57,370 bases of DNA from Clostridiales bacterium (GTDB lineage Bacteria; Bacillota; Clostridia; Peptostreptococcales; Anaerovoracaceae). Position 1 is the first letter of the stretch. Each line of letters starts with the position of its first letter. The stretch is taken from the NCBI GenBank assembly GCA_012513435.1, contig JAAZCE010000010.1, positions 1 through 57,370 on the forward strand. Reading direction: 5' to 3'. Of the stretch, positions 2,054 through 57,370 are shown piece after piece. The notes under the pieces were generated by a model, which saw nothing but the letters and a program-made list of their open reading frames with translations, was not told the DNA's origin and did not search any database. The position numbers were made by a program, and so were the translations under genes.

Positions 2054-3341
2054 TTTGTTCTTCTCCTTTATAATAAAATATGCATATAAGACATAAAATT
2101 AAAAATGGACCAAATATTATCGGATCTATGATTGAGCCATCATTCAATGAATACAATACGTATATTGTAGCAGTTACGGAAAAAACATATCCTGTTTTTT
2201 TCTGTAATATATCCAGTAAATATAACACAAAAGCAAAGACAAGAAAAGCAATAAAAATACCTACTATGCCAAATCTCATATATCCTTCTGCTATGAATCC
2301 TGTATTAGCATTACAATCTATGTGATTATAATATACAGCACCTATCGTATTTGCAACACCTTCAGGATATTTGGGTTTAAATCCGAATATGCTTCCCCAA
2401 AGTGTTGTTTCTAATCCTATTTTGGGGCGAATGCTAAAAAAATCATAATAATAAAATTTTATTTGAGCAGGCAATAATAATAATCTTCTAACAAATAGAC
2501 TGTATAAAACATAAATATTACACATCCAAAATAGGATTGTAGAGGCCAAAACTCCAAGCGAAAATAAAGAAAAAATTTTAAGGTTTGTGTCGTCATGCTT
2601 TGATATGATATAGCATACTAATATCAAAGGAATTGAAAATAAACTAGTCTTATTCCCCGAGTACAAATATAACACTATTATGCTAAGAAAAGCTATAGTT
2701 GAAAAAGCATATTTTTTTCTTGTTAAGCAATATGATATAATGAACGGTAGGATAACATACATCATCCAAGAATAAATATATCCAATATATTTATTTTGTA
2801 TAAAGAAGTTCTCGCGCCGCAATTCATATACATTATTTATATCCAGTGCCGTAACGGTTGGTAAGCCATTTTTTATAACTACATATACCCATACTACCAT
2901 TATGACAATAGCAAAACACGCAAATATGACAAGATTAATCCCCTGTATTCTAATAGAAAAATTAATTGACACATTGCTAGTAAAACAAAATATTACCGTG
3001 GCCGTTAGAAATGCTGCACATACAGCTAAAAAATATATTGAACTTTCATTACAAAAAGAATAGATAACTGACAATGGTATTATCCCTATAAATAAATGCA
3101 GTTCAAATGCAAGCGATGATATTTGGGATCTATCATGATCTATAAATAAGAACAGTACAATTATGGAAAAAAATCCAACTAAATATTTTATGACATTGAA
3201 ATCTAATGTGTATGATGCGTCAATTGAAACTAAAACTGTCAAGAATCCTATGTCTAAAAGTATTTTATAAAAAATCATTACAATAAAAAGCAATGTACTT
3301 TTTTCATTAATGTGAATTATATTGCCCTCTTTTAAATACAT
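2034..3341 (-). CDS. Wzy-like polysaccharide polymerase
   Basis: A 435-residue protein made almost wholly of hydrophobic segments (10 or more predicted helices). A larger polar loop in the second half contains RRENFFIQNKYIGY and later IGLETTLWGSIFGFKP. This matches the topology of O-antigen/capsule polymerases, which join undecaprenyl-linked repeat units outside the membrane. Wzy proteins share little sequence, so the call rests on topology and on lying between Wzx- and Wzz-like genes. The ribosome site before the ATG at 3341 is weak. The gene starts one base after the Wzx stop, indicating translational coupling. Confidence 0.7.
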   Translation of the reverse strand: MYLKEGNIIHINEKSTLLFIVMIFYKILLDIGFLTVLVSIDASYTLDFNVIKYLVGFFSIIVLFLFIDHDRSQISSLAFELHLFIGIIPLSVIYSFCNESSIYFLAVCAAFLTATVIFCFTSNVSINFSIRIQGINLVIFACFAIVIMVVWVYVVIKNGLPTVTALDINNVYELRRENFFIQNKYIGYIYSWMMYVILPFIISYCLTRKKYAFSTIAFLSIIVLYLYSGNKTSLFSIPLILVCYIISKHDDTNLKIFSLFSLGVLASTILFWMCNIYVLYSLFVRRLLLLPAQIKFYYYDFFSIRPKIGLETTLWGSIFGFKPKYPEGVANTIGAVYYNHIDCNANTGFIAEGYMRFGIVGIFIAFLVFAFVLYLLDILQKKTGYVFSVTATIYVLYSLNDGSIIDPIIFGPFLILCLICIFYYKGEEQNEEALC

Positions 3342-3342
3342 A

Positions 3343-4635
3343 TTACTTTATACCTGTTCTTTTAAACAAATCATATTTGCGTGCAAATATGAAAAACAAA
3401 ATAATTGCCATAAGTGTATATACAAATATACTGGTGCACGCAACACCATATGTACCAAATTTAGGTATAACGACAATATTAATGCTAATTTGCAACACTA
3501 CTCCAATTAGTGAAACTACCATATTATACTTTACCTGACCCATCGCTGATAAGGTGTTCGCCGTTATCATACGCAATCCATTATTAATTAGTGCACCTAT
3601 TAGTATTATTCTCATTAAATTGATAGTGTTCATGTACTTAGCCCCTGCATATACATATATTAAAGGCTTCGCCAATACACATAGGAATCCACCTATTATT
3701 AATACAACCCCTAAATTTACTAGATACACCTTGATAAAATTTGTGCGTACCCATACTTTATTTTTTTCATTTCGTACAAAGTATGGGGTAACAAAAACAG
3801 CAATTGCTGAGCATATTATACCAACATTTGCAGGCCATACATATGCAATTTTATAATCCGCAATAATATCAGGGCTGCATCCTAACTTACTAAGTAAAAA
3901 AACATCAGAAATCATGAACAATGTCCATAATCCATTTGTAATCATATATTGAAATGAATATATGTTAATTTCTTTTTTTTGTTTTTTATCAATTTTATCT
4001 TCTTTAATATTTTTAAAATATCTTTTCTTAACAAATGAGGTTGTAACTGCCCCTCCCGCCATATAAATCGCAACTGTAACTGCTATGATACTTCCAATAT
4101 TCCCAATAAATGCACCAAACACTTTACCAAGGACTACCACGGTTGACACTATAAACGAATATACTGCAAATCTTCTATTCTGAAACATTGCTCGTTCTGT
4201 GGCAAGATTATTCTCAACATTATATTGAAACGGCAGCATAACTAACATAAGTGCCAAAAAAAGGCTAGAATTGGTAAATTCTGCAGGATGCGGATATATA
4301 AATGCACTTACAATAAAAACTATTGAGATTATTATGTTATAAACCCAACTCCTATTATTAATGTACTTATAATATTTCTTTTTTTCACTTAAATCGTTTC
4401 CTAAAACAACATATCTCAACACCGCATTTGATAATCCAAATCCAGCAATCAACAGCACAAATGAGTATAAGTTTTCAACATAGCTTAAAACACCATATTC
4501 ATCTTTGCTTAAAAGCCTTACAATAAATATTGATCCAAATAACGTCACAAATTTTGTTGCAAAAGAACCAATGACTATATATAATGCACCTTTTTGCCAT
4601 AAAACTTTAAGATTTGTTATAATTCTATTAATCAA
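3343..4635 (-). CDS. Wzx-type oligosaccharide flippase (MOP family)
   Basis: About 430 residues with 12-14 hydrophobic helices and the N-terminal pattern of MOP-family polysaccharide exporters (IGSFATKFVTLFGSIFIVRLLSKDE split over the first helix). It would flip the undecaprenyl-PP-linked repeat unit for the adjacent Wzy. An ATG exists at 4662, but an AGGAG site lies 8 bases before a TTG at 4635, just past the upstream stop at 4647. TTG at 4635 is therefore the better start. A second Wzx-like gene at 36844-38103 belongs to the other polymer locus. Confidence 0.85.
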   Translation of the reverse strand: MINRIITNLKVLWQKGALYIVIGSFATKFVTLFGSIFIVRLLSKDEYGVLSYVENLYSFVLLIAGFGLSNAVLRYVVLGNDLSEKKKYYKYINNRSWVYNIIISIVFIVSAFIYPHPAEFTNSSLFLALMLVMLPFQYNVENNLATERAMFQNRRFAVYSFIVSTVVVLGKVFGAFIGNIGSIIAVTVAIYMAGGAVTTSFVKKRYFKNIKEDKIDKKQKKEINIYSFQYMITNGLWTLFMISDVFLLSKLGCSPDIIADYKIAYVWPANVGIICSAIAVFVTPYFVRNEKNKVWVRTNFIKVYLVNLGVVLIIGGFLCVLAKPLIYVYAGAKYMNTINLMRIILIGALINNGLRMITANTLSAMGQVKYNMVVSLIGVVLQISINIVVIPKFGTYGVACTSIFVYTLMAIILFFIFARKYDLFKRTGIK

Positions 4636-48570: not shown

Positions 48571-50247
48571 CTAAAACAGGCCTGTAATCCTGCCGGTTCT
48601 GTCTACATCAATATTTTCTGCTGCCGGCTTCTTAGGAAGTCCCGGCATGGTCATAATATCTCCCGTGAGAGCTACGATGAAGCCTGCTCCTGCGGAAACC
48701 TTAATATTTCTTACTGTTAATACAAAGCCTTTAGGCGCACCCAGCATTTTCCCATCGTCGGAAAAACTATATTGCGTCTTAGCCATGCAAATAGGCAGCC
48801 CTCCAAAGCCAAGGGATTCCAGCTGCTTAAGCTGCTTCATTGCTGCAGGCAAGATGTTAATATCATCAGCGTGATATATTTTCTGAGCTATTGCTCTTAT
48901 TTTCTCTTCAATGGTCATGTCCAGCTCATATGTGTATTTCATCTGGCTAGGCTCCTGACAAAGCCTTACAATTTCTTCAGCCAAAGCAACACCGCCTTCT
49001 CCGCCTTTGCCCCAAACCTCGCTGAGGGCAACATTGACACCAAGCTCTCGACATCTCTTCTCCACGAGAGCAAGCTCAGCTTCGCTGTCCGTTGGGAATC
49101 TGTTGATGGCTACCACTGCCGGAAGACCGAAGCCCTTGGTAATATTCTCCACGTGCTGCAAAAGATTAGGAAGCCCTGCCTCAAGCGCAACCAGATTTTC
49201 CTGACCAAGTTCTGTCTTTGCGACTCCTCCGTGGTGCTTAAGTGCTCTAACCGTTGCAACTATCACTACTGCCGAAGGCGTGATGTCAGCCATGCGGCAC
49301 TTGATATCCAGGAATTTTTCTGCACCCAGGTCCGCACCGAATCCTGCCTCCGTAACGACGTAATCTGCCATCTTCATTGCCATCTTAGTCGCCATTACCG
49401 AGTTGCACCCGTGAGCTATATTTGCAAAAGGTCCGCCGTGGATAAATGCCGGAGTCTTTTCGAGAGTTTGAACAAGGTTCGGTTTAAGCGCATCCTTAAG
49501 AAGCGCTGCCAAAGCGCCCTGAGCCTTAAGCTGTCCAGCAGTTACAGGTTCATCATCATAGCTGTATCCTACGATAATCCTTGCAACTCTTACCTTCAAA
49601 TCCTCAATATCGTTGGAAAGACAGAGAATAGCCATTATTTCGCTGGCTACTGTAATGTCAAATCCATCCTCTCTCGGTGTTCCGTTCACCTTACCTCCAA
49701 GACCATCTGTTATGAAACGAAGCTGCCTGTCGTTCATGTCGACACAGCGTTTCCATGTTATTTTCCTAGGGTCGATGCGAAGAGCATTTCCCTGCTGAAT
49801 GTGGTTATCTAGCATAGCCGCCAGCAAATTGTTGGCTGCCCCTATTGCGTGCATATCTCCCGTAAAATGAAGATTTATATCCTCCATAGGAACCACTTGT
49901 GCATAGCCACCGCCGGCAGCTCCGCCCTTTACACCGAAAACAGGTCCAAGTGACGGCTCTCTCAGCGCAACTAAAACATTCTTATCAATTCTTTTTAAAG
50001 CGTCTGCGAGACCGACAGTAGTAGTAGTCTTTCCTTCTCCCGCAGGTGTAGGTGAAATTGCAGTAACGAGAATAACCTTGCCGTCAGGAGTAGCCTTCTT
50101 TTCTTCAAGAATATTGTAATCTATCTTTGCTTTATAGTTGCCGTAAAGTTCCAAATATTTTTTGTCTATTCCGGCTTCTTCGGCAATAGTATTGATGTCT
50201 TCCATCTTGGTTCCCTGAGCAATTTGAATGTCGCTTTTAAGTTCCAT
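48571..50247 (-). CDS. fhs: Formate--tetrahydrofolate ligase
   Basis: About 558 residues. The ATP site is [44 protein letters not shown] (split), [30 protein letters not shown] and [20 protein letters not shown] are the usual FTHFS segments. It activates formate with ATP onto THF, the first step of the folate C1 branch. ATG 50247 has AAGGAG at 7 bases; ATGs at 50253 and 50265 sit too close to or upstream of it. A ZTP-type riboswitch precedes the gene, linking it to purine and folate status. Confidence 0.95.
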
Positions 50248-50301
50248 TTTCATTCTCCTTTTCAATCTTTATCTTGCCTGCGCGTCCTCTGCACAGATTA
50301 T

Positions 50302-50330
50302 AAAAAGAGCCAACAATCCGGACTCTTGGC
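50302..50330 (-). terminator. Intrinsic terminator in the fhs leader (riboswitch expression platform)
   Basis: On the minus strand GCCAA (50326-50330) can pair with TTGGC (50309-50313), or AAGAGTCC with GGCTCTT, followed by five T at 50302-50306. The stem shares bases 50328-50330 with the aptamer's conserved 3' segment, as expected for a switch in which ligand binding prevents termination. Confidence 0.65.
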
Positions 50331-50400
50331 CCAGACGGTCGGCTCGCTTCTTTCATTATACTTCATGTGGTTAATTCCACTTTCCCGTCAGTCGTATAAC
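50328..50400 (-). promoter_or_regulatory. ZTP (pfl-type) riboswitch aptamer
   Basis: On the minus strand: TATAC (50394-50398) pairs with GTATA (50357-50361), enclosing GACTGACGGGA and a GTGG/CCAC hairpin (50377-50380 with 50367-50370). The 3' domain GAGCCGACCGTCTGGGCC (50328-50345) contains the CCG-C/T-CTGGGC core that I know from ZTP riboswitches. Known members sense ZTP/AICAR derivatives, which build up when formyl-THF is short, and turn on fhs, folD and purH genes. Its place before fhs-fchA-folD fits. Recognised by eye, not by covariance search. Confidence 0.8.
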
Positions 50401-50406
50401 AATTTC

Positions 50407-55497: not shown

Positions 55498-55504
55498 ATT
55501 CTAC

Positions 55505-56311
55505 CTATCTTTCTATGGTTCCTAAAAAAAGAGTGCCCTTGCCCTTTCCTTCCATGCTTTCTGTAATAATGTTTTCTTTTGTGCCGTTGAGAAGTATCAT
55601 TGGGATTCCAAACTTATTTACTCTTTCTGCCGCTTCTATCTTTGTTTCTATTCCCCCTGTCCCGAAGGAGCTTTTTTCACCTATCGAAATGGAGCCCTCC
55701 AGCGTATGAGCATTGTCTACCAGCTCAATGAGCTTCGCATCCTGGCTTGCCTTGGGGTCCTTGTCGTAAACTCCGTCTATATCGCTTAACACTATCATCA
55801 AATCGGCATTCCACAAAGTAGTGGTCAACGCCGCCAAGGTGTCGTTATCTCCGATTTTTATTTCGTCTACGCTTACGCTGTCGTTTTCATTTATTACAGG
55901 AACCACGCCTTCATCTATGAGGGTGAACATGGCGTTTCTTATGTTGAGAGTCCTGTGAGGATCCTTAAAATCATCTCTCGTAAGGAGAATCTGAGCCACG
56001 TGGACACCGTAATCCCCGAAGTACTCCTTATATGCCATCATCAGTTCCACCTGTCCTATGGCGCAGAGAGCCTGCTTATAATTAATATCGTTTCGCCGGC
56101 TCCATTTGTTTATGGCGCCTACTCCGCAGATTCCTGCTCCAGATGAAACCAGAATAACCTGTTTCCCCATGCCTATAAGGCCGTTGACCTGTCCCACTAT
56201 ATTGTGAAGAACTTTTTTGTTCACACTGCCACTTCTGCCTGCAAGCACATTGCTGCCTATCTTTATTACTATCTTCTTACTGTCCTTTATGGTTTGACTC
56301 AACTGTTTCAT
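55505..56311 (-). CDS. proB: Glutamate 5-kinase, short form without PUA domain
   Basis: 268 residues, amino-acid-kinase fold: KIVIKIGSNVLAGRSG, QVILVSSGAGICGVGAI, PVINENDSVSVDEIKIGDNDTLAALTT (split), VLSDIDGVYDKDP and GTGGIETKIEAAERV. The usual ~370-residue enzyme has a C-terminal PUA domain, which is absent here. It phosphorylates glutamate for proline synthesis and is normally feedback-inhibited by proline. CAGGAGG precedes the ATG. Confidence 0.93.
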   Translation of the reverse strand: MKQLSQTIKDSKKIVIKIGSNVLAGRSGSVNKKVLHNIVGQVNGLIGMGKQVILVSSGAGICGVGAINKWSRRNDINYKQALCAIGQVELMMAYKEYFGDYGVHVAQILLTRDDFKDPHRTLNIRNAMFTLIDEGVVPVINENDSVSVDEIKIGDNDTLAALTTTLWNADLMIVLSDIDGVYDKDPKASQDAKLIELVDNAHTLEGSISIGEKSSFGTGGIETKIEAAERVNKFGIPMILLNGTKENIITESMEGKGKGTLFLGTIER

Positions 56312-56341
56312 TTGCTGCCTCCTGTCAATCTAAAAATTATA

Positions 56342-56373
56342 CAAAAAAAGGGCTGATACTTCAACCCCTTTTG
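56342..56373 (-). terminator. Rho-independent terminator after spoVS
   Basis: On the minus strand AAAAGGGGTTGA pairs with TCAGCCCTTTT around a 4-nt loop, with G-T wobbles, and a run of T follows. It sits 18 bp past the spoVS stop. Confidence 0.8.
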
Positions 56374-56390
56374 AATATGCTTTTCGTTGA

Positions 56391-56651
56391 TTATCTCGGC
56401 TCTACGATAAGTTTGATAGCCGTTCGTTCCTCTCCCTCTATCATTATGTCCGTAAATGCTGGAACAGAAATCAAATCTATTCCTCCCGGAGCTACAAACC
56501 CCCTTGCTATAGCAATTGCTTTAACGGCCTGATTTAATGCACCTGCACCTATTGCCTGAATCTCTGCTCCACCTTTTTCTCTTAAAACTCCGGCTAATGC
56601 CCCTGCTACTGAGTTTGGATTGGACCTGGCTGATACTTTCAAAACTTCCAT
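56391..56651 (-). CDS. spoVS: Stage V sporulation protein S
   Basis: 86 residues, the standard SpoVS length, when started at ATG 56651 with GGAGG 8 bases upstream (an ATG at 56666 would add five residues). MEVLKVSARSNPNSVAGALA, EIQAIGAGALNQAVKAIAIARG (split) and ISVPAFTDI are highly conserved in the family. SpoVS is a small Alba-like-fold protein needed for normal spore coat and septation events. It is single, with its own terminator. No clear promoter was seen. Confidence 0.96.
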   Translation of the reverse strand: MEVLKVSARSNPNSVAGALAGVLREKGGAEIQAIGAGALNQAVKAIAIARGFVAPGGIDLISVPAFTDIMIEGEERTAIKLIVEPR

Positions 56652-56816
56652 TTTTAATTCCTCCATTAATCTTTACAATGTTAAAAATTACTTGGGTTTC
56701 CCCTCCTTGTCAAATAAATTATATATACCTTTTCCCCGTTTTTATATCACTTTTCACCGACAATTCACATCAAGCTTCGACAGGAAAAAATTTTTTTAGA
56801 AATTTCCTCCTTTTAC

Positions 56817-56846
56817 TTGACATTCTATTACATAATCCCCTATAAT
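56817..56846 (+). promoter_or_regulatory. Strong sigma-A-type promoter of a small RNA
   Basis: TTGACA (56817-56822) and TATAAT (56841-56846), both perfect consensus, are separated by 18 bp. No open frame with a ribosome site follows before the terminator at 56906-56933. Confidence 0.8.
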
Positions 56847-56852
56847 TTGTAT

Positions 56853-56933
56853 TGTGGTTATCCCCCTGATAACCTCATTAATCTCTAATCCCAATACCCC
56901 TTTTAACAAAAAAGACCTTTTGGTCTTTTTTGT
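56853..56933 (+). ncRNA. Candidate small RNA (~80 nt), C-rich
   Basis: A transcript from the consensus promoter would start near 56853. It folds at once into GGTTATC-CCCCT-GATAACC (56856-56874), a perfect 7-bp stem with a C-rich loop. An unpaired stretch without any G follows (56875-56913), holding CCC and CCCC patches, and it ends in a strong terminator hairpin. C-rich loops of this sort are used by Firmicute small RNAs to pair with Shine-Dalgarno sequences. No protein of useful length is encoded. It matches no family that I recognise. Confidence 0.65.
56906..56933 (+). terminator. Rho-independent terminator of the small RNA
   Basis: ACAAAAAAGACC (56906-56917) is perfectly complementary to GGTCTTTTTTGT (56922-56933), with a 4-nt T loop. 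Its distal arm overlaps the -35 box (56930-56935) of the next gene. Confidence 0.88.
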
Positions 56934-56958
56934 TTTACATTGTCTTATATGGTATAAT
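56930..56958 (+). promoter_or_regulatory. Promoter of the YprB-like gene, implying a leaderless mRNA
   Basis: TTGTTT (56930-56935) and TATAAT (56953-56958) are 17 bp apart. Six bases separate the -10 box from the ATG at 56965, with no ribosome site between. Confidence 0.7.
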
Positions 56959-56964
56959 AGGCTC

Positions 56965-57370
56965 ATGAAACATCTGACGGAAAATTTAAAAACGAAAATA
57001 TATACAAACGCCCTCTACGACTTTTATTTTAAAGACTCCAGGGTCGGTGTGCTGGATATTGAGACCACCGGATTAAACCCTTCGGTCAACAAATTTGTTT
57101 TGGGAGGTCTCTACAACTGTCAGGATATGGTTCTCCACCAGTTCTTTGCCGAAAAGAGAGCTGAAGAATCGGCCGCACTTTTATCCTTCGTCAAAGAAGT
57201 CCATAGCCTAGACCTGGTCATTACATATAACGGCAGACACTTCGATATGCCTTTTATCGAGAAACGCATGAAGGCTCTTTTCGGAAGCTGCCTGCAGCTG
57301 CCCTACAATCTGGATTTATATCTGGTATTAAACGGTCATTCGCCTATTAAAAAGCTGGTTCCCAATCTCA
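56965..57370 (+). CDS. YprB-like ribonuclease H-fold exonuclease (partial, C-terminus beyond window)
   Basis: The frame is open from ATG 56965 to the right edge (135 codons visible). VGVLDIETTGLNPSVNKFVL gives the first two acidic residues of a DEDD exonuclease, and LVITYNGRHFDMPFIEKRM the next Asp. This matches the RNase_H_2/YprB family, thought to act on DNA or RNA ends in repair. The N-terminus is shorter than in B. subtilis YprB. The mRNA appears leaderless. Confidence 0.82.
   Translation, partial: MKHLTENLKTKIYTNALYDFYFKDSRVGVLDIETTGLNPSVNKFVLGGLYNCQDMVLHQFFAEKRAEESAALLSFVKEVHSLDLVITYNGRHFDMPFIEKRMKALFGSCLQLPYNLDLYLVLNGHSPIKKLVPNL

Follow-up and report, generated by a model that had tools for sequence, protein, structure and literature searches.

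A conserved C-rich small RNA gene with a putative Spo0A box in its promoter in Peptostreptococcales and related clostridia

Anatomy of the small RNA gene

The window, by which we mean the whole 57,370-nt stretch of DNA from a Clostridiales bacterium that was analysed, carries between a divergent spoVS gene and yprB an intergenic segment (56817–56936) that, judged by the anatomy of its transcription signals and by its conservation, is almost certainly a complete small RNA (sRNA) gene. The segment and its flanks contain the following features.

56776–56782, minus strand: TTCGACA, which on the opposite strand reads TGTCGAA, the core of the Spo0A box; it begins about 77 nt ahead of the predicted start of transcription
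56817–56822, plus strand: −35 element TTGACA, read directly; TTG is the majority triplet (70–85% per position) in 157 distinct loci
56841–56846, plus strand: −10 element TATAAT, separated from the −35 element by an 18-bp spacer; majority bases (60–80% per position) in the 157 distinct loci
56853–56936, plus strand: predicted sRNA transcript of about 84 nt, with a predicted start 7 nt after the −10 element and a predicted end in the T-run
56856–56874, plus strand: 5′ hairpin GGTTATC-CCCCT-GATAACC with a C-run loop, stem arms 56856–56862 and 56868–56874
56882–56904, plus strand: G-free, C-rich conserved single strand TCTCTAATCCCAATACCCCTTTT, the proposed pairing region, based on alignment, counts and predicted openness
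56905–56936, plus strand: intrinsic terminator with a 13-bp stem, a TTTT loop and a T-rich 3′ arm, based on sequence, folding and comparison
56953–56958, plus strand: TATAAT belonging to a distinct extended −10 promoter for yprB, whose ATG (56965) follows after 6 nt

Direct reading bore out most of what the initial annotation had described here, namely the TTGACA and TATAAT hexamers with their 18-bp spacer, the perfect GGTTATC/GATAACC hairpin around a CCCCT loop, and a G-free segment with CCC and CCCC patches, which follows the hairpin at 56875–56904 (TCATTAATCTCTAATCCCAATACCCCTTTT). The terminator stem is likewise perfect, although it is 13 bp long and the 12 bp given earlier fell one short; its arms, AACAAAAAAGACC (56905–56917) and GGTCTTTTTTGTT (56922–56934), enclose the TTTT loop. 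Matching the consensus at 12 of 12 positions, the promoter was the sole one of that quality among five promoter-like sites in 55500–57370, where shuffled sequences lead one to expect 3.8 sites. A simple terminator scan of the same region reported no terminator, the 13-bp stem of the sRNA included. Folding of the predicted transcript gave −25 kcal/mol, a low energy that is owed mostly to the terminator; shuffled sequences averaged −7.3 (z −8.4), and none of 200 was as low. Averaged over the 157 distinct transcripts, the unpaired probability was 0.80 for the tail CCCAATACCCC and 0.97 for the hairpin loop. With a promoter and an intrinsic terminator to itself, conservation that reaches beyond the species and no coding frame that is kept, the locus has the properties of an independent intergenic sRNA gene.

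The gene had been called unannotated, and this held in a search of Rfam 15, which at gathering score returned no match over the sRNA in the window or in eight related loci; the only matches seen there were ZMP–ZTP, T-box and tRNA, all elsewhere. A lax Rfam search of the window yielded chance-level matches only (best E 0.67) and none to RsaE. Elsewhere in the window, a ZMP/ZTP riboswitch (Rfam RF01750) lies at 50322–50405 on the minus strand, upstream of a long frame (48571–50265) that by eye looks like a formate–tetrahydrofolate ligase.

Conservation and distribution

DNA matches of the 161-bp region (E up to 0.01) were found in 77 of 100 relatives, covering 29 of 41 genera, a few of these 77 being partial or terminator-only, and a covariance model matched 74 of the 100. 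Across the order, the model matched 207 of 297 genomes in 98 of 135 genera. Across the whole class it matched 15 of 391 genomes, 13 of them from the window's order (own genome included); the matches outside the order were one in a genome of another family (G236) and a weak, probably chance one in G205. A pattern scan of named genomes matched at least 119 stretches, and among the matches listed were Anaerovorax odorimutans, Emergencia timonensis, Romboutsia, Tissierella, Sedimentibacter, Alkaliphilus and Anaerosalibacter. We take the range of the sRNA family to be the clostridia around Peptostreptococcales and Tissierellales.

The covariance model was built from an alignment of 59 cores differing beyond their first three bases. 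These derive from 90 distinct cores in 186 occurrences, in which some loci are counted twice because they come from two genome collections; one of the 90, from an actinomycetote (L139), was excluded as a chance pattern match. The aligned cores were chosen by a pattern that demands CCCAATACCC, so the invariance of the alignment is partly built in, and loci fetched by score provide the fair count: of the 70 loci fetched by BLAST, 66 had CCCAATACCC and 60 the whole 16-mer TCCCAATACCCCTTTT; the corresponding counts among the 19 fetched by the model were 17 and 13. Beyond TCCCAATACCCCTTTT the sequence is variable among loci. A terminator stem with a T-run was found in 155 of the 157 distinct loci, formed by 107 different 5′ arms, against 8 of 60 in simply shuffled downstream sequence. 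The 5′ hairpin is kept as well (88% of alignment cells paired), with modest covariation: its four two-sided pairs were matched in number by 97 of 500 shuffles, its covariation score was equalled by 5 of 500, and the RNAalifold covariation term was −0.28. Promoter, hairpin, C-rich core and terminator are thus conserved together in relatives, and the sRNA gene proposed from the window alone stood up to the comparison.

By the covariance model, most matched genomes carry one copy. Some carry two to five, mostly in one family (f4), and up to five matches were seen in one genome (G668). Tandem copies, each with its own promoter, occur in L163 (three, 2554–3009) and L181 (two, 3814–4072). G460 has, at about 3190–3300 on the minus strand of L204, a further locus that is divergent but again C-rich and RNA-like with a hairpin; its promoter has the same layout, with TGTCG between the −35 and −10 elements, and it may be a paralogue of the sRNA. 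Family f4 contains Romboutsia-like copies (g45) and also a divergent copy, read in G390, one of eight genomes (3.9–4.8 Mb) of a genus that is probably Clostridioides.

Association of a Spo0A box with the promoter

The core of the Spo0A box is given as TGTCGAA in PMC3485338, which describes specific contacts at G2, C4 and G5. A Spo0A_C domain was found in 37 of the 100 relatives. The 85 nt upstream contained TGTCG or its complement in 19 of 29 loci from Spo0A-positive genomes against 2 of 33 from Spo0A-negative ones (G071 and G078), with shuffled expectations of 1.0 and 2.1, respectively. This test comprised 62 loci; L041, L047 and L208 were excluded as pattern misfits, and L020, L022, L034 and L051 (short upstream sequence) and genomes beyond G099 also stood outside it. 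Because clades differ, a comparison within the window's genus is fairer, and here 37 of 49 members could be used, the rest having no hit, lying at a contig edge or not having been fetched. Counting any Spo0A_C match, GTCGAA or TTCGAC was present in 8 of 10 Spo0A-positive and 0 of 27 Spo0A-negative members, the positive group including three genomes (G005, G030 and G039) whose short matches are probably not Spo0A. Counting only clear full-length Spo0A, all 7 of 7 positive members had GTCGAA and 1 of the 30 others did; it was the best associated of 1,019 six-mers, in upstream regions that have otherwise diverged and are only 24–73% alike.

The box lies between the −35 and −10 elements in several other families and directly upstream of the −35 element in Anaerovorax-type loci; a position inside the core promoter suggests repression. 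The σH −10 consensus contains GAAT, and TGTCG was considered as such an element and rejected for the site between the boxes, where GAAT is not kept while TGTCG is. As in a Spo0A regulon, then, the promoter box is tied to the presence of Spo0A, and we consider it probable, from these genome comparisons, that the sRNA is under Spo0A control through the putative box.

The sRNA was present in 32 of 37 relatives with a Spo0A match and in 42 of 63 without one, many of these genomes being incomplete. Its retention where Spo0A was not found indicates that sporulation is not its sole purpose. The initial annotation had read a possible sporulation or growth-phase role from the adjacent spoVS; the Spo0A-box cores in the promoter do favour such a role, but adjacency to spoVS is not the reason, and the persistence of the sRNA in genomes without a found Spo0A limits it.

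Pairing with G-rich ribosome sites

We lean towards a reading in which the C-rich sRNA acts in trans, by pairing with G-rich ribosome sites, and is itself regulated by Spo0A. A σA-type promoter would start the approximately 84-nt stand-alone RNA and the intrinsic terminator would end it. The loop of the hairpin and the almost unchanging TCCCAATACCCCTTTT tail would then stay open as two C-rich single strands, and these would pair with G-rich Shine–Dalgarno regions and lower translation; on this pairing as the mode of action, a candidate one, we are evenly divided. In Spo0A-bearing species, Spo0A would bind the promoter, as the comparative data favour, and shift the sRNA level at the sporulation transition, the effect presumably being repression in families with the box between −35 and −10. 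Since the RNA is kept where Spo0A was not found, its main job is probably not confined to spores and lies in cells that are growing or in stationary phase.

Pairing in the window's family would presumably proceed without Hfq. A match to Hfq (PF17209) was found in 0 of 61 genomes of this family, and of the 39 other relatives from the order 25 had one; the sRNA is well conserved in the Hfq-less family, whose genomes thus do not offer the protein that an Hfq-dependent sRNA would need.

Searches for targets by sequence pattern gave little. Long near-complements of the tail did not exceed the control in the window's own genome (34/34 against 42/54); the flanks of 29 fetched loci were checked, and none was convincing. 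AAGGGGTATT before ATG occurred 0 times in the own genome; its sums were 129 against 97 for the control in 74 genomes with the sRNA and 28 against 28 in 26 genomes without it, an excess that is at most weak and too weak to use. AGGGGGAT before ATG was far above control in genomes with the sRNA (1,151 against 279) and in genomes without it (340 against 52), and was rejected as a target signal, its enrichment being no greater where the sRNA is present and thus a property of ordinary ribosome sites. Overall, the genome-wide pattern scans for ribosome-site targets gave no clear sRNA-specific enrichment; the blocking of Shine–Dalgarno sequences to which the initial annotation had pointed is a plausible, candidate mode of action.

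The candidate target spo0A

The question of spo0A as a target was raised by the precedent of SpoY (nc020) of Clostridioides difficile, which according to PMC10267692 binds a G-rich motif resembling a ribosome site and blocks the ribosome site of spo0A. A G-run of at least five in the ribosome-site region of spo0A, the complement of the C-run loop of the sRNA, was present in 22 of 26 genomes with the sRNA and 10 of 31 without it (Fisher p 0.00013, uncorrected for relatedness, for a G-run that had been spotted in the same data before being counted); the sRNA-lacking Clostridia of the window's own order had it in 1 of 5. Among genes at large in named sRNA-bearing loci, 48 of 589 had such a run. 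In one spo0A set 27 of 29 loci gave a start (the exceptions being G184 and G176) and G050 was moved to the sRNA-bearing group; G088 yielded no count and G084 was counted by eye. These counts are suggestive of spo0A as a target. The window's own spo0A is without the G-run, and spo0A is therefore only a candidate, and not for the window's species. Ribosome sites of spo0A with a G-run are frequent in Clostridia even without the sRNA (loci L321–L354), and those in sRNA-lacking genomes may point to other C-rich regulators.

A more specific proposal is a double-negative switch, in which the sRNA acts on the G-run Shine–Dalgarno sequence to keep spo0A from being translated and phosphorylated Spo0A represses the sRNA. 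The higher frequency of the G-run in genomes with the sRNA, its excess over genes at large and the location of the Spo0A box, which several families have between −35 and −10, all fit this proposal. Against it, the spo0A site of the window (gaagaggagagggctt) and those of three more sRNA-bearing congeners have no G-run, sRNA-lacking Clostridia also exceed the gene baseline (p 0.0002), and of 20 spo0A leaders only two (G090 and G076) were predicted to pair with the tail better than with 99% of its shuffled versions; in the counts themselves, start codons were chosen by script and some proteins from sRNA-lacking genomes may be paralogues. We therefore hold the switch as a tentative and rather doubtful possibility, and regard as improbable its broadest form, an ancient, order-wide switch in which a Spo0A-repressed C-rich sRNA covers the G-run site of spo0A. 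If true, activated Spo0A would free its own translation and lock in the sporulation decision, and lineages losing Spo0A would have lost only the Spo0A box and kept the RNA for its remaining targets.

A protein-binding RNA

Rather than seeking Shine–Dalgarno sequences, the C-rich strand could be the site of an RNA-binding protein, making the RNA a sponge, a scaffold or a housekeeping RNA. The tail hardly varies, as the 60 of 70 BLAST-fetched loci with the full 16-mer illustrate, and this constancy exceeds the usual demand of short-seed pairing and could hint at a protein ligand. That the target scans turned up no specific mRNA and that most matched genomes have a single copy also agree with a protein-binding role. 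Such an RNA, however, has here no elaborate conserved fold besides one hairpin and the terminator, and its conserved part is predicted to be open; we consider a protein-binding RNA unlikely and retain pairing with ribosome sites as the preferred reading.

Neighbouring genes and coding potential

The gap between spoVS and yprB, in which the gene had been placed, is only half general. A divergent spoVS was found upstream in 19 of 113 distinct loci with enough flank, and yprB followed in the same orientation, no more than 1.2 kb away, in 56 of the 101 distinct loci that had room for it; in the other 45 no yprB was detected over this distance, the query being the partial protein from the window, which distant yprB genes may have escaped. 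The yprB side is thus common and the spoVS side is not, and a spoVS that is usually not adjacent is a weak clue to function.

The frequent yprB neighbour would suit a 5′ leader or attenuator of yprB rather than a free RNA. However, the sRNA ends in a terminator in 155 of 157 loci, 45 of 101 loci had no yprB detected within 1.2 kb by the partial query, and in the window, as in the 12 relatives looked at, the yprB ATG is directly preceded by an extended −10 promoter of its own. By its sequence, yprB looks leaderless and separate from the sRNA, and a leader is very improbable. An extended −10 element (TGNTATAAT-like) stands ahead of the yprB ATG at a similar distance in L004, L006, L011, L012, L013 and L019.

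A small peptide is scarcely credible: a GTG-started frame does span the RNA in the window and run on into yprB, and 61 of 204 occurrences have a 34-codon frame open to the end of the 103 nt examined, but, in keeping with the initial annotation, which saw no frame with a ribosome site here, no Shine–Dalgarno sequence precedes the GTG frame, core length modulo 3 is not kept (52, 25 and 12 of 89 distinct cores), 16 of the 204 occurrences have no start in the first 60 nt, and in 21 the longest frame is only 4 codons. The lack of a kept frame and the extended −10 promoter of yprB thus argue against a peptide and against a yprB leader.

Relation to known small RNAs

By analogy, the sRNA would work most like RoxS/RsaE (RF01820) of Bacillales, its pairing being predicted. 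Both are short and have C-rich strands, those of the sRNA being predicted to be open; C-rich regions of RoxS, with CCCCU in CRR3, can pair with G-rich target sequences according to PMC5419742, and RsaE/RoxS is described as conserved between genera (PMC4409812). The two differ in hairpin, promoter control and phylogenetic range, and the related copy in L203 reached 21.1 bits against the RF01820 gathering score of 79, so that the sRNA fails that family's score. SpoY would resemble the sRNA in its action if spo0A proves to be a shared target. It is described, however, as derived from a 5′ UTR, sharing the start of CDIF630_00827 (PMC10267692), and by that stated location the homologue of our sRNA lies elsewhere: in the presumed Clostridioides genome it stands between a cysteine-desulfurase-like gene (identified by eye) and an amino-acid ABC transporter. 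As precedents for C-rich RNAs acting on G-rich sites, SpoY and RoxS were counted, by analogy, in favour of the pairing reading.

Three further C. difficile RNAs, RCd6, SpoZ (n00620) and SpoX (nc038), are, as the sRNA probably is, tied to sporulation or Spo0A. RCd6 is reported to be about 2-fold down in a spo0A mutant (PMC3649979) and is set apart by its stated location between CD0469 and CD0470; SpoZ, described in PMC10602386 as activated by RgaR, differs by that description. SpoX, which is partly antisense to nc037, is set apart by description as well. Another sporulation-tied small RNA, CsfG of Bacillus, is conserved in endospore formers and made under forespore sigma factors, which distinguishes it by description from the sRNA with its σA-type promoter. 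Among the papers listed in literature searches with the core sequence there was no clostridial sRNA paper, and among those listed by topic there was no Spo0A-controlled sRNA of this kind; it is quite possible that the Clostridioides copy is already a numbered candidate in published sRNA lists, whose supplementary tables lay outside the search. What appears to be new is a Spo0A-box core, recognized by comparison, in the promoter of a deeply conserved sRNA family absent from Rfam and from the literature searched.

Small RNAs usually drift fast; this one has a core that has hardly changed across at least 98 genera. Should spo0A be a target, the sRNA would add a conserved feedback to the poorly understood sporulation decision of clostridia. 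An sRNA that bears a putative Spo0A mark and yet is kept without Spo0A would make a good starting point for studying post-transcriptional control in clostridia of the gut and the environment, the Hfq-less ones included.
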